Assembly: GCF_000271665.2 (NCBI RefSeq)
Contig: NZ_CP010978.1
Span: 1,768,501 to 1,832,500, forward strand
From: Pelosinus fermentans JBW45
GTDB lineage: Bacteria; Bacillota; Negativicutes; DSM-13327
Direction: 5' to 3'
Length of the DNA: 64,000 bases
A model generated the notes under the pieces. It had not been told where the DNA came from. It ran no database searches and worked only from the letters and a program-made list of their open reading frames with translations. Below, in pieces: positions 7,538 to 33,509 of this stretch. Position numbers and translations under genes: made by a program. Position 1 is the stretch's first letter, and every line of letters starts with the position of its first letter.

Positions 7538-10068
<2,531 letters not shown>

Positions 10069-10081
<13 letters not shown>

Positions 10082-10446: not shown

Positions 10447-12141
<1,695 letters not shown>

Positions 12142-12609: not shown

Positions 12610-13422
12610 TTGAGTACTAATGCACCAATTGGTATCTTTGATTCTGGAATTGGTGGTCTTACTGTTGTTAAAGAGCTTATGGAAATCATGCCTGGGGAAA
12701 ATTTGATCTACTTTGGGGATACCGCGCGTACACCTTATGGATCTAGGCCTCCAGCAGAAATTATCGGATTTATGCAGCAAATTTTAGACTTTTTTACTAT
12801 GCAAAAAGTGAAAATGGCTGTGGTTGCTTGCAATACTATGACAGCCTTGGGTCTTGAAATGGCAAAGAAACAATATCCTTTTACGTTGGTAGGTGTTAAT
12901 ACAGGGACAGATATGGCCCTGGCTGTTACCAAAAGCAAAAAAGTAGGGGTTATTGCGACAAAAGCTACCATTGAAAGCAAGAATCATGCCAAGGCTATTG
13001 GGAGAAAAGATGCTGCTGTACTTGTTTATTCTCAGGCTTGCCCAAAACTTGTACCATTAATTGAACAAGAGCAGCTTGAAGGACCTGAAATTGAACTGGC
13101 AATAGCTGAATATCTGCTGCCGATGAAAAAACAGGGAGTGGATGCAATCATTTTAGGTTGTACTCATTATCCTCTTGTGAGTTCAGTGATTGAAAAAATC
13201 ATAGGCAATAAGATTGTCGTTATTGATCCTGCTAGAGAGACTGGATTGGAGGCACAATACTTTCTACAGCAGCAAAAACAATTATCTTCATTGAATCAGG
13301 GAAACGTTAGATTGTGTTTTTCTGCAGATGTGGAACGGGCAAAAAGAATTGCAGGCTTTCTATTTGATACAGAAAAGATAGAATTTGAATTGGTAAATTT
13401 AGAGAAGTTTGCAGTAGTATAG
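12610..13422 (+). CDS. murI: Glutamate racemase
   Basis: 270 aa. Interconverts L- and D-glutamate for peptidoglycan. Clear landmarks: IGIFDSGIGGLTV at the N-terminus, FGDTARTPYG, the first catalytic Cys in VVACNTMTA, and the second in LGCTHYPL. The start is TTG with TTAGGAGGTG eleven bases upstream; no ATG fits. It precedes the uncharacterised cluster running to 19.6 kb, which also has glutamate-linked families (CofE-like, oxoprolinase-like). Confidence 0.95.
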   Translation: MSTNAPIGIFDSGIGGLTVVKELMEIMPGENLIYFGDTARTPYGSRPPAEIIGFMQQILDFFTMQKVKMAVVACNTMTALGLEMAKKQYPFTLVGVNTGTDMALAVTKSKKVGVIATKATIESKNHAKAIGRKDAAVLVYSQACPKLVPLIEQEQLEGPEIELAIAEYLLPMKKQGVDAIILGCTHYPLVSSVIEKIIGNKIVVIDPARETGLEAQYFLQQQKQLSSLNQGNVRLCFSADVERAKRIAGFLFDTEKIEFELVNLEKFAVV

Positions 13423-13517: not shown

Positions 13518-14075
13518 GTGGAAATCTTGGTGACGATAGTAATAATAGCTATAATTATGGCAGTAGCTGTGTGGTTGTTTATTGCCAAACAAGGTGATGC
13601 TGACTTTGAATTTAAAGTGAATGAGCGTACGGAATTTAAATTAGTTGACCAAACCGAAAAAACAGCTACTTTTTCTTGTGAAGTAGCATTTATCAATAAA
13701 GGTTCACAGGATGGTACGATAATGGATGCTTATCCTCGTCATTTGCTGCCCTATGAACAATTTGATGGTGTTGAGGTAAATTCTAGAATGGAACTTACCA
13801 CAGCACTCCGAACCGATAATTATTTTGAAGCTGTGATTATTCCTAAAGGAACGGGTGGAATCGTTATTGTTACGGTTACATTTACGGCGAAGACAGGTAA
13901 TATTAAAGATGCCTTGCAAAATTTATATGATTTGTCTGTAGATATGCCGATTGATATTGTATATCAGATTGTAGCTCGTACCCCATGGTATATTCATAAG
14001 GCGCGTATGATTATGACTTGTGATGAAATCAATAGGGCTATGCAGGCAAAAGGTACTGCGAAATGGGAGGGCTAG
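13518..14075 (+). CDS. Conserved-looking membrane-anchored protein, function unknown
   Basis: 185 aa from a GTG start with GGAGATGGGGG ahead. One N-terminal transmembrane helix (EILVTIVIIAIIMAVAVWLF) has no long cytoplasmic head, so the remaining 160 residues are probably outside or membrane-associated. The body has alternating beta strands (FSCEVAFINKG, GIVIVTVTFTAK) and a C-terminal helix. No catalytic motif is recognised. The stop lies three bases before the CofE-like gene, indicating an operon with it. Confidence 0.7.
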   Translation: MEILVTIVIIAIIMAVAVWLFIAKQGDADFEFKVNERTEFKLVDQTEKTATFSCEVAFINKGSQDGTIMDAYPRHLLPYEQFDGVEVNSRMELTTALRTDNYFEAVIIPKGTGGIVIVTVTFTAKTGNIKDALQNLYDLSVDMPIDIVYQIVARTPWYIHKARMIMTCDEINRAMQAKGTAKWEG

Positions 14076-14077
14076 TA

Positions 14078-14755
14078 ATGGCAGAACTTGAACTCAAACC
14101 AGTAGGTACGCGTATTTTAACAGATAAAGACAATATTGTAGATATGATCGAAAAGTATACCAAAGAGGATATTGGACCGGATGATGTAGTATCGGTAGCT
14201 GAGAGCGTCGTTGCGATTACCCAGGGGCGTGTGGCAAGGCCCGAAGATTTTAAAGTGTGCTTTTTAGCGAAGATTTTATGCCGCTTTGTACCTCAAAAAG
14301 GCAGTTTATCCAGTGTATACGGTATGCAGTCATTAATGGATGCAGAAGGTAAGTGGCGCGTTTTATTTGCTATGATCATAGGAATGTTTGCCAAAATTGT
14401 TGGGAAGAATGGTGTGTTTTATGAACTAGCAGGTTCACATGCTGCTCTAGTTGATGATGTTACGGGCACAATGCCGCCTTTTGATAAATGTCTGGTATAC
14501 GGACCTTTGGAGGCAAATGGCGTAGCAGAGGAAATTAAACGTCGATTAGGCTGTTATGGTGCAGCAGTGGCAGATGTAAATGATTTAAAACGAGCATTGG
14601 TAGTAGGTGCTTCAGCAGGTCTTGATCCTAAGAAGTTGGCACATATTTTAATTGATAATCCTTTCGGTAACGCTTCCCAACGGACACCGATTGTTATTAT
14701 TAAAAATTATGCAGCAGTAGAGAGAAGGACAGAAAATCTTCTTTCTAGTGAGTAA
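14078..14755 (+). CDS. CofE-like protein (F420-0:gamma-glutamyl ligase family)
   Basis: 225 aa from the ATG at 14078 (GGGAGGG upstream; a longer frame from 14063 overlaps that site). VGTRILTDKDNIVDMIEKY, GPDDVVSVAESVVAITQGR, AGSHAALVDDVTGTMPPFDK and VYGPLEANG fit the CofE fold, which adds glutamate to a lactyl-phospho cofactor in F420 makers. No other F420 genes are in the window, and Firmicutes with stand-alone members lack a proven function. A gamma-glutamyl or other amide-forming ligase is likely; the substrate is unknown. Confidence 0.7.
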   Translation: MAELELKPVGTRILTDKDNIVDMIEKYTKEDIGPDDVVSVAESVVAITQGRVARPEDFKVCFLAKILCRFVPQKGSLSSVYGMQSLMDAEGKWRVLFAMIIGMFAKIVGKNGVFYELAGSHAALVDDVTGTMPPFDKCLVYGPLEANGVAEEIKRRLGCYGAAVADVNDLKRALVVGASAGLDPKKLAHILIDNPFGNASQRTPIVIIKNYAAVERRTENLLSSE

Positions 14756-14865
14756 TTGATTAGCAAAGAGGATAGAATACAGCTATCCTCTTTGTTATTT
14801 TTGCTGTAAAATTAACTAATATTATAGGTCTAAAATGTGTGGAATATATGTGTTGGAGGAATGAC

Positions 14866-15843
14866 ATGGCTAATATTGGTATTACTACAACCGTACCTGT
14901 GGAGATTATTTTAGCAGCCGGAAATGTACCAGTAGATTTAAATAATGTATTTATTACTGATAAAGAAGCCAATCGATTAGTAGAAGGAGCCGAAGATGCA
15001 GGTTACCCTCGTAATATATGCGGCTGGATTAAAGGTTTATATTCTGTAGTCGTAGAGCGGGGAAATATAGATACAGTACTTGCAGTTACCCAAGGCGATT
15101 GCAGTAACACTCATGCCTTAATGGAAACCTTGCAATTGGTAGGTGTAGAGACCATTCCTTTTGCATATCCTTTTGATCGGGATTATGATCTTTTGAAATT
15201 GCAGATGGATAAATTAATTACAGCTTTAAAAACGGATTGGGAGCAGGTTATGGCTGTAAAAAAACGTTTAGATGGGGTAAGAAGTAAAATTGCTGAAATG
15301 GATCGCCTTACCTGGCAGGGAAATATAGTAAGTGGTTGGGATAACCACTTATTTCAAGTTAGCTGCAGTGATTTTAATGGAAATGTGAATAAATTTGAGC
15401 AGGATATTGATCAATTTTTATTAAAAACGAAGTATGCCAATGAATTTACAGAAGATATCCGCTTAGGGTATATTGGTGTTCCACCTATTTTTAATGATCT
15501 ATATGGTCATTTTGAAAAGATGGGAGCAAGGGTTGTCTTCAATGAAGTGCAGCGGCAGTTTGCCATGCCTTATCAAGTAGAGGATTTAGTGGAACAATAT
15601 AGACTGTATACCTATCCTTATGGTGTCTTTCAGAGAATTGAAGATATTAAGAGAGAAATTGAAAAACGTAATTTGGATGGTATTGTGCATTATGTCCAAA
15701 GTTTCTGTTTCAGGCAGATTGAGGATATGATCTTTAGGGAAAAATTAGATATACCCATACTAACCATCGAAGGAGATAAGCCGGGTAAGTTGGATGCCAG
15801 AACGAAGCTTCGAATGGATAGTTTTCTGGAAATGCTGCGATGA
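14866..15843 (+). CDS. 2-hydroxyacyl-CoA dehydratase subunit-like protein (HgdB/CompD family)
   Basis: 325 aa from the ATG at 14866 (TTGGAGGA, seven bases before); the ATG at 14839 lacks a ribosome-binding site. Start TTVPVEIILAAGNVPVDLNN and later TQGDCSNTHALMETL, YIGVPPIF, YVQSFCFRQIEDM resemble the dehydratase D/beta subunits, with cysteines (RNICGW, GDCSN, SFCFR) that could hold a [4Fe-4S] cluster. It is single rather than the usual alpha/beta pair, so it may act on another substrate. The following gene encodes its presumed ATP-dependent activator, ten bases on. Confidence 0.75.
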   Translation: MANIGITTTVPVEIILAAGNVPVDLNNVFITDKEANRLVEGAEDAGYPRNICGWIKGLYSVVVERGNIDTVLAVTQGDCSNTHALMETLQLVGVETIPFAYPFDRDYDLLKLQMDKLITALKTDWEQVMAVKKRLDGVRSKIAEMDRLTWQGNIVSGWDNHLFQVSCSDFNGNVNKFEQDIDQFLLKTKYANEFTEDIRLGYIGVPPIFNDLYGHFEKMGARVVFNEVQRQFAMPYQVEDLVEQYRLYTYPYGVFQRIEDIKREIEKRNLDGIVHYVQSFCFRQIEDMIFREKLDIPILTIEGDKPGKLDARTKLRMDSFLEMLR

Positions 15844-15853
15844 GGTGAAAGAT

Positions 15854-16618
15854 ATGTTTTGTGGTATCGATTTAGGCAGCCGTAGTGTAAAATTAGTTGT
15901 AATGGATCAAGAAGGTGTAAACCGTTCTGAAATCTTTGAAACCGTGCAGTTTTATCGAAACTATGGGCAACCTGGGCAAAATGGACTCGTTGTTGACTTT
16001 GCCTCTGTGGGGGTAGGGGAATTTGATAAGGTGGTTGCTACTGGCTATGGGCGTAATACCATCAATATTGTAGGAGCTACTGTCATTGCAGAACTGAAAG
16101 CACACGTTATAGGAGCCATGTGGCAGACTGGACTTAATAATTTTACCTTATTGGATTTAGGTGGACAGGATAGTAAAGTCATTAAGGTGCGCAAAGGTAA
16201 AATGGTAGATTTTGCGACAAATGATAAATGCGCTGCCAGCACAGGGCGATATTTAGAAAATATGGCAACGGTTCTCGGGATTAGTTTAGCAGAACTTAGC
16301 AATTATAAGGAAAACCCTGTAGAGCTGTCTGCAACTTGTGCTATTTTTGGAGAATCTGAGCTTATTGGACGCATTGTGGAAGGTCATAGCGTTCCACAAT
16401 TAGCAGCTGGTGTTAATTATACGATTTTCAAGAGAATCAAGCCGATGCTCCATTCTCTTGCCAGTGAAGTGATTGTCTTTACGGGAGGTGTGGCTTTAGG
16501 AAAGGCCATTGGACAAACCATATCTTCTGAACTTGGAGTAGAGGTTGTTGTACCAAAGTATCCACAACTCAATGGAGCAATCGGCTGTGGGGTTTATTCC
16601 TGGGAAAAGAGGGGATAA
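15854..16618 (+). CDS. HgdC/BadF-type ATPase, 2-hydroxyacyl-CoA dehydratase activator-like
   Basis: 254 aa from the ATG at 15854 with GAGGTGA ahead. ASKHA-fold ATPase: GIDLGSRSVKLVVMD (phosphate 1), LLDLGGQDSKVIKV (phosphate 2), VFTGGVALG (adenosine). The two cluster cysteines of activators are present in NDKCAASTGRYLE and SATCAIFGESELIG; in known activators a homodimer shares one [4Fe-4S] between such cysteines and injects a high-energy electron into the dehydratase. The partner is the preceding gene. Confidence 0.85.
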   Translation: MFCGIDLGSRSVKLVVMDQEGVNRSEIFETVQFYRNYGQPGQNGLVVDFASVGVGEFDKVVATGYGRNTINIVGATVIAELKAHVIGAMWQTGLNNFTLLDLGGQDSKVIKVRKGKMVDFATNDKCAASTGRYLENMATVLGISLAELSNYKENPVELSATCAIFGESELIGRIVEGHSVPQLAAGVNYTIFKRIKPMLHSLASEVIVFTGGVALGKAIGQTISSELGVEVVVPKYPQLNGAIGCGVYSWEKRG

Positions 16619-16619
16619 T

Positions 16620-18284
16620 ATGTTCTTGGGGCTTGATATTGGTGGGACATTTACAGATGGTGTAGTAGTAGCAGATGGGAAAATAGTCACGATGGTTAAG
16701 ACTCCTACGACTAAGGAGAATCTATTGCAATGCATTTTGACGGTAGTAGATAAGATGGTGGAGGATACTGGCAGTAAGGCGTTTGAACGCATTGCACTAT
16801 CCACAACAATTGTAACCAATGCAATAGTGGAAGGTAATATTGATCAGGTTGGTCTATGTATTATGCCTGGACCAGGGATGAACATAAATGATATTCTGCC
16901 AGTTGCGCCTTACATCTTATCTGGTTATATTGACCATCGTGGCCGTGAAATGGCTCAGCCTAATAAAGAGGAAGTGCTGAGTGCTTGTCGTCATTTTTCT
17001 TCTTGTGATGTATTTGTTGTTTCTGGGAAATTTGCTGTTCGTAATCCTTGTTTTGAATTAGCAGTGACGGATTGGATACAAGGACAAGTGAGCCCTATGC
17101 ATATTAGTACAGGAGGAAAAGTTTCAGGTTCGCTTAATTTTTTAAGGCGCACCAATTCGGCTTATTATAATGGGGCTGTATGGCGGCATTTTAATGCTTT
17201 TGCTACAGCAGTAGAAGAAGCATTAAAGATGCGTGGGATTTATAGTCCTGTTTTTGTGTTAAAAGCAGACGGAGGAACACTGCCTTTATCAGTAGCCAGA
17301 AACTATCCTGTAGAGGCTATTTTTACTGGACCCGCTGCCAGTACCATCGGTATTATGGGCATGAATGGTGATGCCCACGTTTCTGGAATTTCTCTTGATA
17401 TTGGGGGCACTACTACAGATATTGCATTGTGGCAAAAGGGAAGACCTGTTTTAGCAAAAGAAGGGGCAGCCGTTGCTGGGCATGGAACTGGGGTTCAGGG
17501 ATTTCGCCTTAAGTCTGTTGGAATCGGCGGTGACAGTTTGGCTTTCTGGGAGAATCATGTATTGAAGGTAGGACCGATGCGCCATGGCCCTGCTATGGCG
17601 GCAGGAGGTCCTAAGCCTACTGTGACTGATGCTATGGTAGCGGCAGGATTCATTGATTTTGGCGATCGCGCCTTAGCAGTAAAGGCAATGAAGCTGCTTG
17701 CTTTACAAGGGCAAAGCCCAGAAGAGATGGCGAGTCAAGTACTAGATAAGGCAGTGAATGGTATTTGCCAGTCGATAGCCAATTTGTTGGACGAGCAAGC
17801 TGCTGAACCTTTATATCATGTAGAAGAAATTATTTTTGAAACAAAATTTGTCTTAGAAAATATAATTGGTGTAGGCGGCGGAGCGGCAGGTCTTGTGCCT
17901 CTGGTTGCTAAAAAGCTGGGAATTAGCTATACACTTCCTGAGAATGGGAGGGTTGCTAATGCCTTTGGCGCGGCGGTAGCAAGACCAACTCTTGATATTA
18001 CTCTTCGTGCTGATACTGCAGAAGGATATTATACCGTTGCGGAATTAGGGATCAAAAATAGACTGCCTCGAGGGAAATTTTCTTTACAAAATGCTTATGA
18101 GTTAGCAGAAAAACATTTGGCAGAGTTAGCCCAGAAAAATGGTATTTTTATCGGTGAAACCCAAATCATACAATCAGAGGAATTTAATATGGTTCGTGGC
18201 TTTACTACAGTGGGAAAAATTATGACCTGCCGCTTGCAGGTAAAACCTGGTGTGCTGCAGTATGGCAAGGAGGAGTTATGTTGA
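16620..18284 (+). CDS. Hydantoinase/oxoprolinase-family protein
   Basis: 554 aa from the ATG at 16620 (AGAGGGGATAAT before it). N-terminal GLDIGGTFTDGVVV, LSTTIVTNAIVEG and central SLDIGGTTTDIAL, then VGIGGDSLAFW and GVGGGAAGLVPLVAKKLG mark the HyuA-type ATPase that opens cyclic imides or 5-oxoproline. No HyuB partner is nearby, unlike true hydantoinases, so the reaction may be different. It starts one base after the activator gene and overlaps the next gene by seven bases. Confidence 0.82.
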   Translation: MFLGLDIGGTFTDGVVVADGKIVTMVKTPTTKENLLQCILTVVDKMVEDTGSKAFERIALSTTIVTNAIVEGNIDQVGLCIMPGPGMNINDILPVAPYILSGYIDHRGREMAQPNKEEVLSACRHFSSCDVFVVSGKFAVRNPCFELAVTDWIQGQVSPMHISTGGKVSGSLNFLRRTNSAYYNGAVWRHFNAFATAVEEALKMRGIYSPVFVLKADGGTLPLSVARNYPVEAIFTGPAASTIGIMGMNGDAHVSGISLDIGGTTTDIALWQKGRPVLAKEGAAVAGHGTGVQGFRLKSVGIGGDSLAFWENHVLKVGPMRHGPAMAAGGPKPTVTDAMVAAGFIDFGDRALAVKAMKLLALQGQSPEEMASQVLDKAVNGICQSIANLLDEQAAEPLYHVEEIIFETKFVLENIIGVGGGAAGLVPLVAKKLGISYTLPENGRVANAFGAAVARPTLDITLRADTAEGYYTVAELGIKNRLPRGKFSLQNAYELAEKHLAELAQKNGIFIGETQIIQSEEFNMVRGFTTVGKIMTCRLQVKPGVLQYGKEELC

Positions 18285-19597
18285 ATGCTCAAAGGTTAGG
18301 ATTGGTATTTTTTCCAGCTTTTGATTGGGCGATTAGCCCAACTCATCCTGAGCGGGAGGAACGTTTGTTATATACCCGTGATCAGATTGTAGAAGAGGGG
18401 CTGCTGGATATGCCAGCGATACGGGAATATAAGCCTAAAATCGCTACAATTCAGGATATTGAAAGAGTGCATGTTGGGGTGCCTGATATAGCATCTTTAA
18501 TTACCAATGCTCATTTGGTGTCAGCAGGTGGAGCGATTGCAGCTGCTGATGCGGTAATGAAGAAGGAAGTACAGCGGGCTTTTGCTTTAGTACGTCCGCC
18601 AGGACATCATGCTATGCGCATTGTTCATGGGACTCGTGGATTTTGTACCATTAACATGGAAGCAATTATGATAGAATATTTACGGAAAACCTATGGTATC
18701 GGTAAAGTTGCCATCGTTGATACAGATGTGCATCATGGCGATGGTACCCAAGATGTCTTTTATCATGATCCTAATACCTTATTTATTTCCTTTCATCAGG
18801 ATGGGCGGACCTTATATCCGGGTACTGGTTTTACCAATGAAATGGGTAGTCCTAATGCTCTTGGTACTACTTTAAACATACCCTTGCCGCCAGGAACGAC
18901 AGATCGTGGTCTTCATGAAGTACTGGATCATCTGATTATGCCTATTTTGGGAGACTTTAAGCCTGATATTATTATTAATTCTGCCGGGCAGGATAATCAT
19001 TATAGTGATCCTTTAGCGAATATGGCAATTACAGCACAGGGCTATGCGCGATTGGCCGATACATTAAAGGCGGATATTGCTGTATTGGAAGGCGGATATT
19101 CCATTGAAGATGCTTTACCCTATGTAAATGTAGGGATTGTATTAGCCATGGCAGGAATGGATTATAGTAAAGTCATTGAACCTAATATTGCAGATTGCCC
19201 CTCTCAAACTTCTTCTGTCACTCACTATATAAAAGATGTAATCAAGGAGCGCCAAGATATGTGGGGGAAAAAAGAGAAGCTGCAGCGTGAAGCAATTATG
19301 AAACATGGTGAATTCTGGCAGACAGAGCGCAGTATCTATTATGATGATGAAGGTATTAATGAACTGCAAAAAGAAAGAATACGCTTATGCCCTCATTGCT
19401 CTGGATATGTAATAATTGAAACGAAGGCGCGCAGTAGTCTTCATTATAAAACAGCTTATATTGGTATGATTCCTCAGATGGCTTGCCCGGCTTGTCTAAA
19501 AGCAGCTTATGATATGGTACATAAAGCAAAGAAACAAGGGAATTATCAGCACTATATGGTGCAAAATAAACAGGAAGATCGGCTGGAAAAATTGTAA
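18278..19597 (+). CDS. Histone-deacetylase-family amidohydrolase with C-terminal zinc-ribbon-like tail
   Basis: 439 aa. Class II-like HDAC/AcuC fold: ALVRPPGHHAM (catalytic His pair), VDTDVHHGDGTQDVFY (zinc ligands D and H), SFHQDGRTLYPGTG, NSAGQDNHYSDPL (third ligand D), EGGYS. Bacterial members deacetylate acetyl-CoA synthetase, polyamines or other acyl amides. The last 90 residues add a CPHC...CPAC pair that could bind zinc, an extension unusual for AcuC-type enzymes. AAGGAGGAG before the ATG; overlaps the oxoprolinase-like gene by seven bases, so they are coupled. Confidence 0.85.
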   Translation: MLNAQRLGLVFFPAFDWAISPTHPEREERLLYTRDQIVEEGLLDMPAIREYKPKIATIQDIERVHVGVPDIASLITNAHLVSAGGAIAAADAVMKKEVQRAFALVRPPGHHAMRIVHGTRGFCTINMEAIMIEYLRKTYGIGKVAIVDTDVHHGDGTQDVFYHDPNTLFISFHQDGRTLYPGTGFTNEMGSPNALGTTLNIPLPPGTTDRGLHEVLDHLIMPILGDFKPDIIINSAGQDNHYSDPLANMAITAQGYARLADTLKADIAVLEGGYSIEDALPYVNVGIVLAMAGMDYSKVIEPNIADCPSQTSSVTHYIKDVIKERQDMWGKKEKLQREAIMKHGEFWQTERSIYYDDEGINELQKERIRLCPHCSGYVIIETKARSSLHYKTAYIGMIPQMACPACLKAAYDMVHKAKKQGNYQHYMVQNKQEDRLEKL

Positions 19598-19685: not shown

Positions 19686-20429
19686 ATGAACCGACCAGAT
19701 GGCCGAAAGGCTGATAAAATGCGTCCATTAAAAATCACTCGTAATTATTTAAAATATCCGGAAGGATCGGTGCTGATAGAAGTGGGCAATACGAAAGTAA
19801 TATGTGCTGCCACAATTGAGGATAAAGTACCACATTTTATGAAGGGCTCAGGTGAAGGATGGATTACTGCTGAATATTCTTTGTTACCTCGCTCTACACA
19901 GGTGCGTAATATTCGTGAGTCCGCTAAAGGAAAAATAACAGGAAGGACTCACGAAATTCAGCGGCTAATTGGCAGAGCATTGCGGAGTGTGGTTGACTTA
20001 AGAGCCTTAGGGGAAAAAACAATTTGGATTGATTGTGATGTTATACAAGCGGATGGCGGTACTCGGACGGCTGCGATTACAGGATCGTTTGTGGCCCTGG
20101 TCGATGCAGTGAATAGTATTTATACCAACCATGAGAAACCTTTCCCTGTAAAAGAGTTCTTAGCAGCGGTTAGTATCGGTGTTGTAAAAGATACGGTGAT
20201 TGCTGATTTGTGTTATGAAGAGGATTCGGCAGCGATTGTGGATATGAATGTTGTAATGACTGGGAGCGGCCAGTTTGTAGAGGTGCAGGGAACAGGTGAA
20301 AAACGTCCTTTTAGTCGACAGGAGCTGAATGAAATGCTGGCTGTTGCAGAAAAGATGGTAGGGGAATTAATTGATTATCAAAAAGATATTCTAGGACCTT
20401 TATCGTGGAAAATCGGACGTGAACCATGA
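19686..20429 (+). CDS. rph: Ribonuclease PH
   Basis: 247 aa, family length. Phosphorolytic 3'-end trimming of tRNA precursors. [12 protein letters not shown] at the start, [37 protein letters not shown] (phosphate-binding Arg) and [18 protein letters not shown] are all present. Its stop overlaps the start of rdgB by four bases, the usual rph-rdgB-yfcE arrangement in Firmicutes. Confidence 0.96.
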
Positions 20430-27974: not shown

Positions 27975-28391
27975 ATGGAAAACAATAAGGTAAAAGTGAT
28001 TTTGGGGGTCATTGGAGCTGACTGTCATGCAGTAGGTAACAAAATTTTAAACTATGCCTTTACTTCCGCAGGATTTGAAGTAGTTAATTTAGGGGTGTTG
28101 GTTCCTCAAGAAGAATTTGTAAATGCAGCTATTGAAACGGATGCAAAAGCCATTCTCGTCGCTTCCTTATATGGACACGGGGAAATTGATTGTCGGGGAT
28201 TGAGAGAACGCTGCCGTGAATCCGGTTTAGGTGATATTTTATTGTATGTTGGCGGAAATTTGGTAGTTGGTAAAACTGATTTTACGGAAGTACACAAAAA
28301 ATTTATTGAAATGGGTTATGACAGAGTCTATGAGCCAGGTATACTTCCTGATCAAGTGGTCATTGATTTAAAGAATGATTTAGGTTTATAA
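27975..28391 (+). CDS. glmS: Glutamate mutase sigma subunit (B12-binding)
   Basis: 138 aa. Binds coenzyme B12 and with GlmE rearranges L-glutamate to (2S,3S)-3-methylaspartate. [12 protein letters not shown] holds the DxHxxG motif whose His replaces the benzimidazole on cobalt; [26 protein letters not shown] and [10 protein letters not shown] complete the Rossmann-like fold. AAAGGAGTAG before the ATG. First of the glmS-glmL-glmE set. Confidence 0.97.
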
Positions 28392-28404
28392 GGGAGTCTT
28401 GATT

Positions 28405-29787
28405 ATGAATCATATTTTACTGATTGATTTTGGGAGTACTTATACCAAAATTACTGCAGTGGATATTGACAATGAAATAGTATTAGGCACTGCTCGTGGT
28501 ATAACTACTGTAGAAACTGATATTATGAATGGACTAAATCAGGCGATCGATGCCTTGTTTCTCAAGACGGGTAAACTAAAATTTTCAAAAGTATTAGGTT
28601 GCTCTAGTGCAGCCGGTGGATTGAAAATGGTAGCCGTTGGATTGGTGCCTGAGCTTACAGCAGAAGCTGCCAAACGTGCAGCTCTAGGGGCTGGTGCCAA
28701 GATCATGGGTGTTTATGGTAATGAATTAAATGAATACGAAATACAAGAAATAGCCCAGTTGCAACCGGAAATTATTCTGTTGGCAGGTGGTACCAATGGC
28801 GGTAATAAAGAAGTGATTCTGCATAATGCTAGAATGCTTACCACTCTTGGCAAAGATATTCCTGTCATTGTAGCAGGTAATAAATCGGTAGCGCCTCAAG
28901 TAGTCAAGACCTTATTAGAAGCGATGACAGAGGTAGTACATACTGAAAATGTAATGCCGAAGTTAAATGAACTAAATATTGAGCCTGCACGTGAAACCAT
29001 TCGCAGTGTATTCTTAAGAAGGATTGTGGAAGCTAAGGGGCTCAATAAAGCAAATCAGTTTGTTGATGATGTAGTTATGCCTACGCCGGCTGCGGTATTG
29101 AAGGCTGCTGAACTTCTAAGCAAAGGTACAGAATATGAGCCTGGTTTAGGTGACTTAATGGTAGTGGATATTGGTGGTGCAACCACTGATGTATATTCCA
29201 TTGCCAAAGGTGATCCTACTAAAACCAATGTAGCCTTGCGAGGACTGCCAGAACCCTTTGCGAAACGTACAGTCGAAGGCGATCTGGGGATGCGGTATAG
29301 TGCGACAGCTCTATTTAAAGCAGCTGGTGCCAAGAGGATTGCAGATTATGCCAATGTTTCTGCAGAGGATGTGGAGGCATATGTGGAAAAGGTCGAAGCA
29401 AATATTGAATATTTACCACAAAATGAGATTGAAAAAAAAGTGGAAATCGCCATGGGGAAAGCTTGTACTTCCTTAGCGGTGGAACGCCATGTCGGACAGC
29501 TTGAAACGATATTCACATGTTTCGGTTCTGCTTTTGTACAAAAAGGCAAGGATCTGAGTGATGTTAAGACGGTGGTAGGTACTGGTGGCGTAATTGTCCA
29601 TCATGAACAGCCTAAAGAAATTTTAAAGGGTGCAGCATACAGTGAAAGTACACCTGAAATGTTAAAGCCTGAGTGTCCGAAGTACTTGATTGATGAAGAG
29701 TACATTATGGCATCCATGGGTCTATTGGGTGAAGTATATCCGGATGTAGCAGTAAGAATGATGAAAAAATATATTGTGCGGGGGTAG
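28405..29787 (+). CDS. glmL: GlmL/MutL, glutamate mutase-associated ASKHA ATPase
   Basis: 460 aa from the ATG at 28405, eight bases after AAGGGAG (a TTG at 28399 is too close). [57 protein letters not shown] and [11 protein letters not shown] mark the MutL family of actin-like ATPases always found with glutamate mutase and thought to reactivate the B12 enzyme. Sits between the two catalytic subunits as in clostridia. Confidence 0.95.
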
Positions 29788-29792
29788 CAGTA

Positions 29793-31247
29793 ATGGAATT
29801 GAAAAATAAAAAGTGGACACATGATCACTTCTATGGTGTACGCGAAGAAATATTGAAACATTGGCCAACGGGTGCTGATGTAAATTTTGAGGAAGCTGTT
29901 AAGTATCACGAGACAATCCCAGCTAGAAAACATTTTGCAAAGCGTTTAGTAAAAGCGAAGAAGAATGGTGAAACATTAACTCAGCCCAGAGCAGGGGTTG
30001 CATTATTGGATGAACACATTAATCTTTTAAACTTTTTGCGTACAGAGGGAGAAGCGGATCTTCTGCCAACTACGATTGATAGTTATACTCGTCAAAATCA
30101 ATATGAAAATTGTGCAAATGCAATTGAAGAAAGTATGAAAGCCGGTCGCTCCTTACTAAATGGTTTTCCAGCAGTAAATCATGGAGTTCATGGTGTACGT
30201 AAACTGGTAGAAAGTGTAGATGGTCCATTACAAGTACGCCATGGTACACCGGATGCTCGCTTATTAACAGAAATAACGTTAGCAGGTGGATTCACATCCT
30301 ATGAGGGTGGCGGTATCTCCTATAACATTCCTTATGCTAAAAGTGTTTCGTTAGAAAAAACAATTTATGATTGGCAATATAATGACCGCTTGGTAGGTAT
30401 TTATGCTGAGCATGGGATTGAAATTAACAGAGAGCCTTTTGGACCTTTAACAGGAACGCTAGTACCACCTTGCATTTCTCATGCAGTGGCCATCATTGAA
30501 GGTATTTTGGCAGCGGAGCAGGGTGTTAAAAATATAACATTAGGTTATGGTCAATGTGGTAATCTATTCCAAGACGTTGCAGCGATTAAAGCCTTAGAGC
30601 AGTTGGCAGAAGAGTATTTGGTAAAACATGGATATAGCGACTGCGTATTAACTACTGTATTCCATCAATGGATGGGCGGATTCCCGCAAGATGAAGCAAA
30701 GGCATTTGCTGTAATTTCTTGGGGCGCAGCAGCTGCTGCCTTGGCAAAGGCTACGAAAGTTATTGTTAAGACTCCTCATGAAGCGTTAGGAATTCCTACA
30801 AAAGAAGCCAATGCGATGGGACTTCGTGCAACGAAGCAATTAATCAATATGCTGGCAGACCAACCATTCCCGATGACTGCAGAAGTAGATATTGAAGTGG
30901 AAATGATAAAAGCAGAAACACGTTGTATTTTGGATAAAGTTTTTGAACTTGGCAATGGAGATTTTGCATCTGGCAGCGTTCGTGCCTTTGAAGCCGGTGT
31001 CTTGGACGTGCCTTTTGCTCCTAGCCAGTATTCCTTGAATAAAATTCTGCCAGCCCGTGATAATAATGGCGCTGTACGATTATTTGATGTAGGAAATCTA
31101 CCTTTCACACAGGATATTATTGACTTCCATAAAGCTAAAATTGATGCTCGCGCTAAAGAAGAAGGACGTAAAGCAAGTTTCCAAATGGTTATTGATGATA
31201 TTTATGCGATTTCCAAGGGACGCTTAGTAGGCAGACCTAATAAATAA
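29793..31247 (+). CDS. glmE: Glutamate mutase epsilon subunit
   Basis: 484 aa, the family length. TIM-barrel catalytic subunit: [44 protein letters not shown] (substrate Arg), [13 protein letters not shown] and [14 protein letters not shown] are all conserved blocks. Works with GlmS and adenosylcobalamin. Six bases after glmL. A strong hairpin follows its stop. Confidence 0.97.
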
Positions 31248-31259
31248 ATCTTAAATTCA

Positions 31260-31298
31260 GCAAGGCGGCAAAAGGTATTCTGCCTTTTGCCGCCTTGC
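31260..31298 (+). repeat. Intercistronic 16-bp perfect hairpin between glmE and mal
   Basis: Arms 31260-31275 and 31283-31298 (GCAAGGCGGCAAAAGG and complement), 7-base loop, followed by ATAAAAAGG rather than a T-run. More likely an mRNA stabiliser or cleavage site than a terminator, so glm and mal can be expressed at different levels. Confidence 0.65.
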
Positions 31299-31323
31299 AT
31301 AAAAAGGAATGGAGAGTGTAATC

Positions 31324-32574
31324 ATGAAAATTGTAAATGTTGTATGTTCAAAAGGTCGTACTGGTTTTTATTTTGATGATCAACGGGCTATTAAAGCAGG
31401 AGCTCAGCATGATGGTTTTAGTTATGTAGGAGAAACGGTTACTCCTGGATTTCATTCCATTCGTCAAACTGGGGAAGCTGTATCGGTAATGATCGTATTA
31501 GAAGATGGACAAGTGGCTTACGGCGATTGCGCTGCTGTACAATACAGCGGAGCAGGCGGACGTGACCCATTGTTTTTAGCCGAAGATTTTATTCCTGTGA
31601 TTGAACAAGAAATTAAACCACGTCTCGTGGGTCGTGAATTAACTTCTTTTAGACAATTGGCAGGAGAAATTGACAGTATGGTTGATGCCAAAACAGGTAA
31701 ACTAATCCATACTGCACTGCGTTATGGCGTAACCCAAGCAATTTTAGATGCTGTATCCAAAGCAAAACATAAATTGATGTGTGAAGTAGTTGCAGAAGAA
31801 TATAACACAACTGTTAGTGAAACAGCGATTGATATTTTTACCCAGTCTGGGGATAATCGCTATGATAATGCTGATAAAATGATCATCAAAGGGGCTCAGG
31901 TATTGCCTCATGCCTTGATTAATAATGTAGAAGAAAAATTAGGCAAGAATGGTGAATTGTTGCTTGAATATGTTACTTGGTTAAAGAATCGTATACTAAG
32001 CTTGCGTACCAGCGATTCTTATAACCCTGTACTGCACATTGATGTTTATGGCACAATTGGTGCTGCATTCGATCTGGATACCGAAAGAATGGTCTCTTAT
32101 TTCCGTGAATTAGAAAAAGCAGCTGCTCCTTTAAAACTTCGCATTGAAGGTCCGATGGATGTAGAAGATCGCGAAAAACAAATGTTAGCGTTAAAAGAAA
32201 TTACGGCTCGTTTACACGAAGAAAAGATCAATGTAGAAGTGGTTGCTGATGAATGGTGCAATACGCTGGAAGATATTAAATATTTTGCTGATAATAATGC
32301 TGGTGATATGCTGCAAATCAAAACACCGGACTTAGGCGGAATTAATAATACCATCGAAGCTGTTTTATATTGTAAAGAAAAAGGCGTAGGTGCATACCAA
32401 GGCGGTACTTGCAACGAAACAGATCGTTCCGCACAGGTTTGTGTACATCTTGCGATGGCAACTAAACCAGTACAGATGTTAGCAAAACCAGGCATGGGCG
32501 TGGATGAAGGCATCATGATTGTATATAATGAAATGCAACGTATCTTAGCTGTTCGCCAGGCTCGTAAGGCATAA
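31324..32574 (+). CDS. mal: Methylaspartate ammonia-lyase
   Basis: 416 aa from the ATG at 31324; the ATG at 31309 lies in the GGAATGGAGAG ribosome-binding region. Enolase-superfamily enzyme converting 3-methylaspartate to mesaconate plus ammonia. GYVGETVTPG-type N-terminal region (FSYVGETVTPGFHSIR), QYSGAGGRDPLF, the Mg ligands HIDVYGTIG, EGPMD and VADEWCN, and the catalytic Lys in MLQIKTPDLGGI are present, with YQGGTCNETDRSA after it. Follows glmE, fixing its role in the methylaspartate pathway. Confidence 0.96.
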   Translation: MKIVNVVCSKGRTGFYFDDQRAIKAGAQHDGFSYVGETVTPGFHSIRQTGEAVSVMIVLEDGQVAYGDCAAVQYSGAGGRDPLFLAEDFIPVIEQEIKPRLVGRELTSFRQLAGEIDSMVDAKTGKLIHTALRYGVTQAILDAVSKAKHKLMCEVVAEEYNTTVSETAIDIFTQSGDNRYDNADKMIIKGAQVLPHALINNVEEKLGKNGELLLEYVTWLKNRILSLRTSDSYNPVLHIDVYGTIGAAFDLDTERMVSYFRELEKAAAPLKLRIEGPMDVEDREKQMLALKEITARLHEEKINVEVVADEWCNTLEDIKYFADNNAGDMLQIKTPDLGGINNTIEAVLYCKEKGVGAYQGGTCNETDRSAQVCVHLAMATKPVQMLAKPGMGVDEGIMIVYNEMQRILAVRQARKA

Positions 32575-32576
32575 AT

Positions 32577-33509
32577 ATGAGAATGTTAATGCATGAGCAA
32601 TTAATGTATGCTAGTTATTTTGCACCCAGAGGACGTAATCGTATGTTTGTTTTGGGGCAGCAGATTAGTGAACGTTATTTGTCGCCATTGGATCGTCTAA
32701 TTGGCATTGTTGGTGGTCCTGGTGCAGGTAAATCTTCCTTAATTAAAGGTATGTTTCCTGGATTAGAATTAACAAATGATGATGATGGTGTAAATGTACG
32801 TCCCTTGCCTTTGCTCAAAAATATTGAAAAAGATTTCTTTTCCAGTCATACCTATCATATTGATATTCGTTTTGAGTTGGCATTTACTCAACTTCATGTA
32901 TTAGCAGATGCTATTAAAAAAGCACTATCTCATGATAAACGGGTCATAGTAGAACATTTTGATCTGTTATATCCTGCTCTGGGGGCAAATGCTGATGTGC
33001 TCTTAGGTGTAGGCGGCGAGGTTATTGCTGTTCGTCCTAATGTTTTTGGTCCTTTTCCTCAGGAAATTGCTGATGTGGTTGTAAAGACTTTAAAGTACCG
33101 TAAAATGGCTCATACTGCTGAAGATTTGACAGAAAGTATTTTATTGAAAGATTATGGTGCTATCTTGCCTTTTGGTCACAGAGATGTACATCATGGTTTT
33201 GTCCTGGAATATCCTGTGGAGATTGATGCCGATCTTAAGGAAGTCGAAAAAAAGGTTAAAGAAATCATTGATGAGGGTTTGAAAGTTTGCTATTCTGACG
33301 AGGGGCATATTGAAATTGGTGATGTTTCATGGGCGTGTACGGGACCGCGGACCCATGTGCATAATACGGAAGATATTGAAGGTTTTCGTCTGCTCCATGA
33401 GTATAAATATGACCCTAAAACGAAAACCTACCTTATTATTGGCTTGGTAGGACCATTAGAAGAGAATCTTGATGGTTTTTCCAGCATGGTCTTTCATGCA
33501 TCATTGTAA
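32577..33509 (+). CDS. P-loop ATPase with AlaRS second-additional-domain-like C-terminus
   Basis: 310 aa. Residues 40-60 carry a Walker A loop (GIVGGPGAGKSSLIKGMF), followed by a nucleoside-kinase-like region to about 200. The last 110 residues (PFGHRDVHHGFVLEYPVEID, WACTGPRTHVHNTEDIEGF) resemble the editing-type second additional domain of alanyl-tRNA synthetase, including paired histidines and a Cys that could bind zinc. Proteins of this type travel with glutamate mutase/methylaspartase loci in some anaerobes. The role is unknown: pathway control, cofactor handling or amino-acid editing are all possible. It begins two bases after mal. Confidence 0.65.
   Translation: MRMLMHEQLMYASYFAPRGRNRMFVLGQQISERYLSPLDRLIGIVGGPGAGKSSLIKGMFPGLELTNDDDGVNVRPLPLLKNIEKDFFSSHTYHIDIRFELAFTQLHVLADAIKKALSHDKRVIVEHFDLLYPALGANADVLLGVGGEVIAVRPNVFGPFPQEIADVVVKTLKYRKMAHTAEDLTESILLKDYGAILPFGHRDVHHGFVLEYPVEIDADLKEVEKKVKEIIDEGLKVCYSDEGHIEIGDVSWACTGPRTHVHNTEDIEGFRLLHEYKYDPKTKTYLIIGLVGPLEENLDGFSSMVFHASL

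Follow-up and report, generated by a model that had tools for sequence, protein, structure and literature searches.

A three-module locus between murI and rph in Negativicutes, with a candidate gene pair for peptidoglycan polyamination

The stretch of 64,000 nucleotides analysed here (hereafter the window), taken from contig NZ_CP010978.1 of the 5.38-Mb genome of Pelosinus fermentans JBW45, carries between murI and rph a locus of three two-gene modules in fixed order: module A, ORF185 and a CofE-like protein; module B, an HgdB-like protein and its HgdC-like activator; and module C, a HyuA-like ATPase and a protein of the histone deacetylase (HDAC) fold. The explanation of the whole that we favour, tentatively and at slightly less than even confidence, is that the three modules form two transcription units, that module A would polyaminate peptidoglycan, that module B would be a reductase or dehydratase and that module C would act as an ATP-dependent amidohydrolase.

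Gene order and modularity of the locus

Six open reading frames (ORFs) on the + strand (13518-19597) lie in two packed blocks, as the first-pass annotation had described, flanked by murI (12610-13422) and rph (19686-20429), and Pfam upholds the families that had been proposed for the last five. ORF185 (13518-14075) consists of a hydrophobic N-terminal segment and a soluble domain, and neither Pfam nor NCBIfam yields a match for it at E <=0.01. The CofE-like protein (14078-14755) passes the cut-off of PF01996, the F420-0:gamma-glutamyl-ligase fold, with 30.2 bits against 25, the Pfam match being limited to residues 16-72. It is followed by the HgdB-like catalytic protein of 325 amino acids (14866-15843; HGD-D, PF06050, 2e-35), the HgdC-like ASKHA ATPase activator (15854-16618; BcrAD_BadFG, PF01869, 1.7e-33; TIGR00241, 183 bits against a cut-off of 125.4), the HyuA-like ATPase (16620-18284; Hydant_A_N, PF05378, 1e-25, and Hydantoinase_A, PF01968, 4.2e-39) and the HDAC-fold zinc amidohydrolase (18278-19597; Hist_deacetyl, PF00850, 2.1e-69). 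The true starts of the CofE-like and HgdC genes are probably those at 14078 and 15854. The upstream flanking gene, also on the + strand, encodes the glutamate racemase MurI (TIGR00067, 216.6 bits against a cut-off of 146.65).

The conservation of this arrangement was followed in a class sample of 120 Negativicutes genomes, with thresholds of E <=1e-10 for the HgdB-like protein and E <=1e-90 for the HDAC, class handles and family labels being assigned by hand from the search listings; co-occurrence and neighbourhood statistics given throughout do not account for phylogeny. Among the named genomes scanned, the closest relatives belong to Pelosinus, with HgdB identities of 98 and 96%. Fifty-four Negativicutes loci were read, 34 of them B-positive; the remaining 20 were centred on an HDAC match (18) or on Rph (two). 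Their order is YbgC-MurI-[ORF185-CofE]-[HgdB-HgdC]-[HyuA-HDAC]-Rph-RdgB, interrupted only by missing genes or contig ends, and its conservation across many families of the class is not explained by chance. The conserved co-occurrence that the first-pass annotation had put forward as a check was thus found, the six genes standing in one order across the 34 B-positive loci when contig ends and lost pairs are allowed for. A literature search for the entire six-gene set found no paper.

Within this order the genes are present or absent as pairs. The B pair is gone as a whole from some loci, even within the genus (L071, L072), the C pair from others (L056, L058, L059, L061), and B and C are both gone from L088 and L089; the two A genes occur in reversed order in L082, and C is present with A absent at the locus in L085 and L087. 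Across the class sample the CofE-like protein was matched in 116/120 genomes (100/101 good genomes), with one match each, the HgdB-like protein in 35/120 and the HDAC in 65/120, while B and C occur together in 31 genomes, B only in 4, C only in 34 and neither in 51. MurI stands directly upstream of A in 39 of the 50 Negativicutes loci with A. A fusion of ORF185 with CofE, hinted at by ORF lengths in L039, L041, L042 and L044, is ruled out by an intervening stop codon.

Outside the class, about 103 genomes matched the CofE-like protein (113 minus 10 of the class), and 72 loci, for the most part the best matches, were read from 71 of them; 59 loci around HgdB served as controls. HgdB was found in none of these 72 CofE-like loci, and of the 59 B loci one contains A and none C. 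A CofE-like match is present in only 6/54 B-positive genomes outside the class.

A terminator-like hairpin of 15 pairs with a T-rich tail (14761-14797, + strand) follows cofE and separates modules A and B. Using a home-made pattern with a shuffle control, we found such a hairpin 3' of cofE in 42/50 Negativicutes loci, whichever gene comes next: 26/32 CofE-HgdB gaps against 2.3 expected from shuffling, 14/16 CofE-HyuA gaps against 2.0 and 2/2 CofE-Rph gaps against 0.0. Terminator-like sites were seen in 2/37 MurI-ORF185 gaps, with 2.9 expected, and in 2/32 HDAC-Rph gaps, and the median gaps are 5 bases for HgdC-HyuA and -1 base for HyuA-HDAC. Because the hairpin after cofE is conserved and the MurI-ORF185 and HDAC-Rph gaps have few such sites, ORF185 and cofE most likely end an upstream unit, which would include murI where present (in the window, the first gene shown of that unit), and modules B and C would form a second one. 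Rph (RNase PH, + strand), which forms the right border of the locus and is followed by RdgB and a phosphodiesterase (names from synteny and sequence reading), probably belongs to this second unit.

The first-pass annotation had suggested that all six genes form a single pathway, which would make or break a gamma-glutamyl or acyl amide by way of an unusual reduction, read here as ATP-driven. Such a pathway would fit the unvarying gene order of the 34 B-positive loci, as well as the co-occurrence and tight packing of B and C, but B is missing from 82 of the 116 A-positive genomes of the class (34 have both), the B or C pairs are cleanly lost, the conserved hairpin divides A from the rest and, elsewhere, the modules live apart. 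A single dedicated pathway is therefore unsupported, and we consider it very improbable. Since A, B and C are separable, an amide bond made or broken through an unusual reduction would join enzymes that have no mutual need. What can be retained is the link to glutamate and to the making of amide bonds, which is plausible for the CofE-like gene.

The CofE-like protein and its membrane partner

Considered on its own, module A is a candidate for the D-Glu:polyamine ligase of Negativicutes peptidoglycan, because an amide-ligase fold occurs throughout the class, usually with murI upstream and with a membrane partner, and because its relatives have polyamine and cell-wall genes as neighbours. Modelled by AlphaFold (mean predicted local distance difference test, pLDDT, 84), the CofE-like protein matches CofE of Archaeoglobus (2phn_B) with a Z of 14.2 and a root-mean-square deviation of 3.1 over 184 residues, and Foldseek returns E 2e-7, while by sequence the match is confined to the N-terminal part. 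The protein therefore resembles CofE and the N-terminal domain of FbiB (PF01996) in fold over most of its chain, in addition to passing the Pfam cut-off, and its ADVND motif aligns weakly with the ITDTNG of CofE. It differs in that it does not reach the level of the CofE equivalog (NF009809, 21.6 bits against a cut-off of 274), is accompanied by a membrane-anchored partner, lies downstream of murI in most loci and, in other lineages, forms fusions with an amidase domain or stands near polyamine decarboxylases. ORF185 adjoins the CofE-like gene in 50 Negativicutes loci and, outside the class, in nine (E 1e-10) or ten of the 72 CofE-like loci.

Polyamine-forming decarboxylases occur in 29 of these 72 loci, 17 being pyruvoyl-dependent arginine decarboxylases and 12 Orn/Lys/Arg decarboxylases. 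The two families, whose assignments were verified on examples, are unrelated and never found in the same CofE-like locus. All 29 lie <=2.6 kb from the CofE-like gene and 26 within about 1 kb, and the Orn/Lys/Arg decarboxylase is on the same strand at <=30 bases in 10/12 cases. Among the control HgdB loci, two of 59 have a polyamine decarboxylase (L125 and L138), and the Fisher test compared 29/72 with 1/58, setting aside L125, which itself has a CofE-like gene. Orn/Lys/Arg decarboxylases are common (263/298 genomes, one to four copies each); by our own rough estimate, about 1% of loci would have such a match within 11 kb by chance. The 29 loci are spread over 11 of 33 families, and eight loci of family f59, as well as L215, share an arrangement in which ORF185-CofE is accompanied by a divergent arginine decarboxylase.

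The relatives outside the class have cell-wall neighbours as well. Eight loci in four families (L203, L205, L206, L207, L248, L253, L254, L255) encode amidase-CofE-like fusions, with the CofE-like domain behind the amidase domain, which in L203 is an Amidase_3 by Pfam; the best NCBIfam match of a stand-alone neighbour amidase is CwlD, under its cut-off. No strongly hydrophobic start was seen in 8/8 fused and 28/31 stand-alone amidases, start codons being uncertain, which suggests that the fusions join a cytosolic peptidoglycan-type amidase to an amide ligase. A SpoVB/MurJ-like flippase is present in 24/72 CofE-like loci outside the class against 0/59 controls, and a protein read from its sequence as YkuD-like lies near the CofE-like gene in L212 and L214.

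Older work on Selenomonas reportedly named an activity lipid intermediate:diamine ligase. Module A would be like this ligase in that its CofE-like gene, of an amide-ligase fold, is near-universal in the group reported to have polyaminated peptidoglycan and, in other classes, is found near genes for polyamine synthesis and for the cell wall. No paper found by our literature searches names a gene for the peptidoglycan polyamine ligase, and the word 'ligase' is absent from PMC10628300. Cadaverine or putrescine is carried on the peptidoglycan D-Glu of Negativicutes, where OmpM anchors the outer membrane (PMC10628300, PMC5007114, PMC12826042), and OmpM binds peptidoglycan polyaminated at the D-Glu alpha-carboxylate (PMC10628300, PMC12826042). 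From the reference lists of PMC12826042 and PMC10628300, peptidoglycan polyamination has been known since the 1980s, and PMC12826042 cites a 2012 survey of Selenomonadales. For CofE itself, PMC10861534 places the gamma-phosphate of GTP next to the substrate carbonyl.

We propose that the CofE-fold enzyme would be held at the inner membrane by ORF185, would activate with GTP a D-Glu carboxylate in a precursor of peptidoglycan (lipid II being the probable one) and would form an amide between this carboxylate and cadaverine, putrescine or agmatine. The product would be the polyaminated peptidoglycan that OmpM grips in Negativicutes. The use of GTP, the direction of the reaction, the substrate and the docking role of ORF185 are all inferences.

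Several observations weigh against this proposal. The racemase link is not strict, MurI not having been found upstream of A in 11/50 loci. Polyamine decarboxylase, amidase and flippase each occur in 0/54 Negativicutes loci, so that the link to polyamines is drawn from other classes, and we know of no report of polyaminated peptidoglycan for the approximately 103 CofE-like-positive genomes outside the class. There, the decarboxylase matches are uneven, 8/17 coming from one family and 8/12 from another (16/29 together), and five of the eight amidase-CofE fusions fall in one family. The loci chosen were mostly the stronger matches, and L203-L207 were picked for their long reading frames, which favours fusions. 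Amidases are common at control loci too (37/59), which makes nearness alone a weak argument, and a single family accounts for the link of HyuA-HDAC to CofE outside the class. CofE, moreover, makes glutamyl amides on F420, from which a soluble glutamyl-polyamine or a cofactor is a possible product of its relative. Module A may accordingly be imagined to produce a gamma-glutamyl-polyamine in soluble form, or to glutamylate a small cofactor, and not to modify peptidoglycan at all: CofE forms amides on a small cofactor (PMC10861534), and both the adjacent polyamine decarboxylases and the loci that lack murI upstream would suit such a product. The pointers to the cell wall nonetheless speak against it, namely murI upstream in most loci, the amidase fusions, the flippase, the YkuD-like proteins and the membrane-anchored partner, and we judge a soluble product rather unlikely.

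A more far-reaching version of the peptidoglycan proposal combines modules A and C. ORF185 and the CofE-like protein would supply the lipid II D-Glu:polyamine ligase that is missing for diderm Firmicutes. The CofE fold would then have passed from the chemistry of cofactors to that of the cell wall and, in other lineages, have been joined to a CwlD-like amidase of the cytosol, and HyuA-HDAC would be an ATP-dependent amidohydrolase of a novel kind, releasing polyamines from their acylated forms for use by the ligase. Taken jointly, these claims are rather unlikely in our estimation.

The HgdB-HgdC and HyuA-HDAC pairs

The predicted structure of the HgdB-like protein (pLDDT 85) takes the fold shared by 2-hydroxyacyl-CoA dehydratases, benzoyl-CoA reductases and the double-cubane cluster protein (DCCP), matching HAD, Bzd, Mbd and DCCP chains with Z 24.9-30.2 at 13-21% identity. 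An alignment of its conserved cysteines, which the first-pass annotation had called for, was built from 76 of the best 80 of 242 confirmed loci plus the window protein: C52, C79 and C281 are invariant in 77/77 sequences and C167 is Cys in 75/77. In HgdC, C126 and C162 are invariant in 34/34. The double cubane of BzdN is held by six Cys (PMC11971306). Because six are needed for a double cubane and the HgdB-like protein has fewer, we infer that it carries a single [4Fe-4S] cluster with an open site, for which C52, C79 and C281 are the expected ligands. The pair shares the fold, the three-Cys site and an activator with two conserved Cys with 2-hydroxyacyl-CoA dehydratases and class I benzoyl-CoA reductases; the (R)-2-hydroxyacyl-CoA dehydratases and benzoyl-CoA reductases have two catalytic subunits where a single one of 325 amino acids is found here. 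The locus has one HgdB-like gene, and 35/35 B-positive class genomes have one match each (E 1e-10). DCCP also combines a single catalytic subunit with an activator and is the best Protein Data Bank sequence match of the HgdB-like protein; it was rejected as an assignment, the DCCP family (NF040772) giving 39.8 against 350 bits and the protein having four Cys, three of them invariant, not six. The plasmalogen synthase PlsA/PlsR is another HgdB-related pair, and the TudS/DUF523 desulfidases may be considered a possible analogue of module B. Elsewhere in the same genome (G000:C1:1281951-1285273, outside the window), three weak HgdB-family matches under the family cut-off lie near one another and probably belong to a different system.

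Module B would thus be an ATP-driven [4Fe-4S] reductase or dehydratase without double-cubane cysteines, the clusters of both proteins being predicted from sequence. HgdC would pass single electrons into the one [4Fe-4S] of HgdB by ATP hydrolysis, and HgdB would reduce or dehydrate a small molecule, perhaps one related to glutamate.

Of the 59 HgdB loci outside the class, 28 have MurI, 37 have Rph and 21 have GlmE or methylaspartate ammonia-lyase; at least one of these genes is present in 56. Loci of Desulforamulus and most of those of Desulfosporosinus read GlmS-GlmL-GlmE-methylaspartate ammonia-lyase-HgdB-HgdC, and in several Desulfosporosinus loci HgdB-HgdC is followed by genes read from their sequence as citrate/citramalate-lyase-like. 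Thirteen loci have HgdB without an adjoining HgdC (L116, L123, L125, L133, L135, L141, L142, L148, L149, L154, L157, L170, L173). No close HgdC was found elsewhere in the 12/12 genomes of this kind that were tested, many of them drafts, though other activators exist; the best HgdC elsewhere in these genomes is 33-39% identical, compared with 58-64% where the pair is present (four genomes). All 12 aligned HgdB-like proteins without HgdC retain the three cluster Cys.

This neighbourhood raises the question of whether module B might serve the glutamate mutase/methylaspartate pathway as a reductase or reactivase, acting for instance on its B12 enzyme or on mesaconate. GlmE or the ammonia-lyase is often directly upstream of HgdB in the 21 loci outside the class, and an apparent pathway lies in the window at 28-41 kb. 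Yet 15/35 B-positive class genomes have no GlmE match, 14 GlmE-positive genomes lack B, and many B loci read MurI-HgdB-HgdC-Rph without glm genes, so that a service to this pathway seems unlikely, if worth keeping in mind. A role in sporulation is suggested by the way in which B tracks spore formers, B and SpoIVA being found together in 28 class genomes, B only in 7, SpoIVA only in 17 and neither in 68. It appears improbable: SpoIVA is unmatched in five B-positive genomes that are 92-100% complete (G007, G013, G016, G022, G030), the 17 SpoIVA genomes without B have to be accounted for, and lineage may account for much of the correlation. As full explanations of B, both sporulation and glutamate fermentation were rejected, since the correlations are partial only and neither is strict.

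The HyuA and HDAC genes of module C occur together in 28/28 HyuA-positive loci chosen by HgdB and in 46/46 loci overall, most of the remainder having been chosen by HDAC, which biases the larger count. The same pair lies beside amidase-CofE in seven loci of one family outside the class. The HyuA-like protein matches the '5-oxoprolinase' 6yra with E 3.8e-20 and has conserved GGT..D and D-GGTTTD stretches; in its domains and ATP-site motifs it resembles the HyuA subunits of 5-oxoprolinase, caprolactamase and acetone carboxylase. It differs from 5-oxoprolinase-type systems in that no HyuB is seen at the locus and an HDAC-fold protein is paired with it, the first-pass reading of a HyuA without HyuB being correct for the locus genes (the rest of the genome was not searched). 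The HH, DxH, D and Y residues of the HDAC are conserved, and we take their catalytic roles to be those of the HDAC family. The extra CxxC pairs noticed earlier do exist and form a C-terminal four-Cys ribbon, with C371, C374 and C403 present in 44/47 sequences and C406 in 46/47. From gene pairing and fold, our guess is that HyuA and HDAC may work together as an ATP-dependent amidohydrolase, the HDAC fold taking over the part of HyuB: HyuA would activate a carbonyl and the zinc site of the HDAC would carry out the hydrolysis, perhaps on an acyl-polyamine.

Surroundings of the locus and implications

Upstream of the locus, two large collagen-like Gly-X-Thr repeat proteins are encoded side by side on the - strand (7538-10081 and 10447-11805); proteins of this kind are seen on spore surfaces. 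Downstream, positions 21593-44149 hold an apparent glutamate (methylaspartate) fermentation region, in which GlmE was verified (PF06368), the lyase was assigned via a relative and the rest was read from sequence. Its genes encode a glutamate symporter, a two-component system, an asparaginase-like protein with a signal-like start and a GntR regulator, then GlmS, GlmL, GlmE and methylaspartate ammonia-lyase (27975-32574, + strand), as well as citrate/citramalate-lyase-like proteins, fumarase-type hydratases and a fumarate reductase. A P-loop-like protein (cluster c24) is encoded at 32577-33509; such proteins occur in 8/59 HgdB loci outside the class, and the relative in L114 has no Pfam match.

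The single-subunit HgdB-HgdC pair is widespread, several Firmicutes groups keeping it at murI-rph or next to glutamate mutase, and would represent an uncharacterised low-potential enzyme. As for module A, polyaminated peptidoglycan is the structure to which OmpM holds on so as to keep the outer membrane of Negativicutes, Veillonella among them, in place (PMC10628300). A class-wide candidate gene makes the question of the peptidoglycan polyamine ligase directly testable and, if the proposal is true, the CofE fold would extend from F420 to the cell wall.

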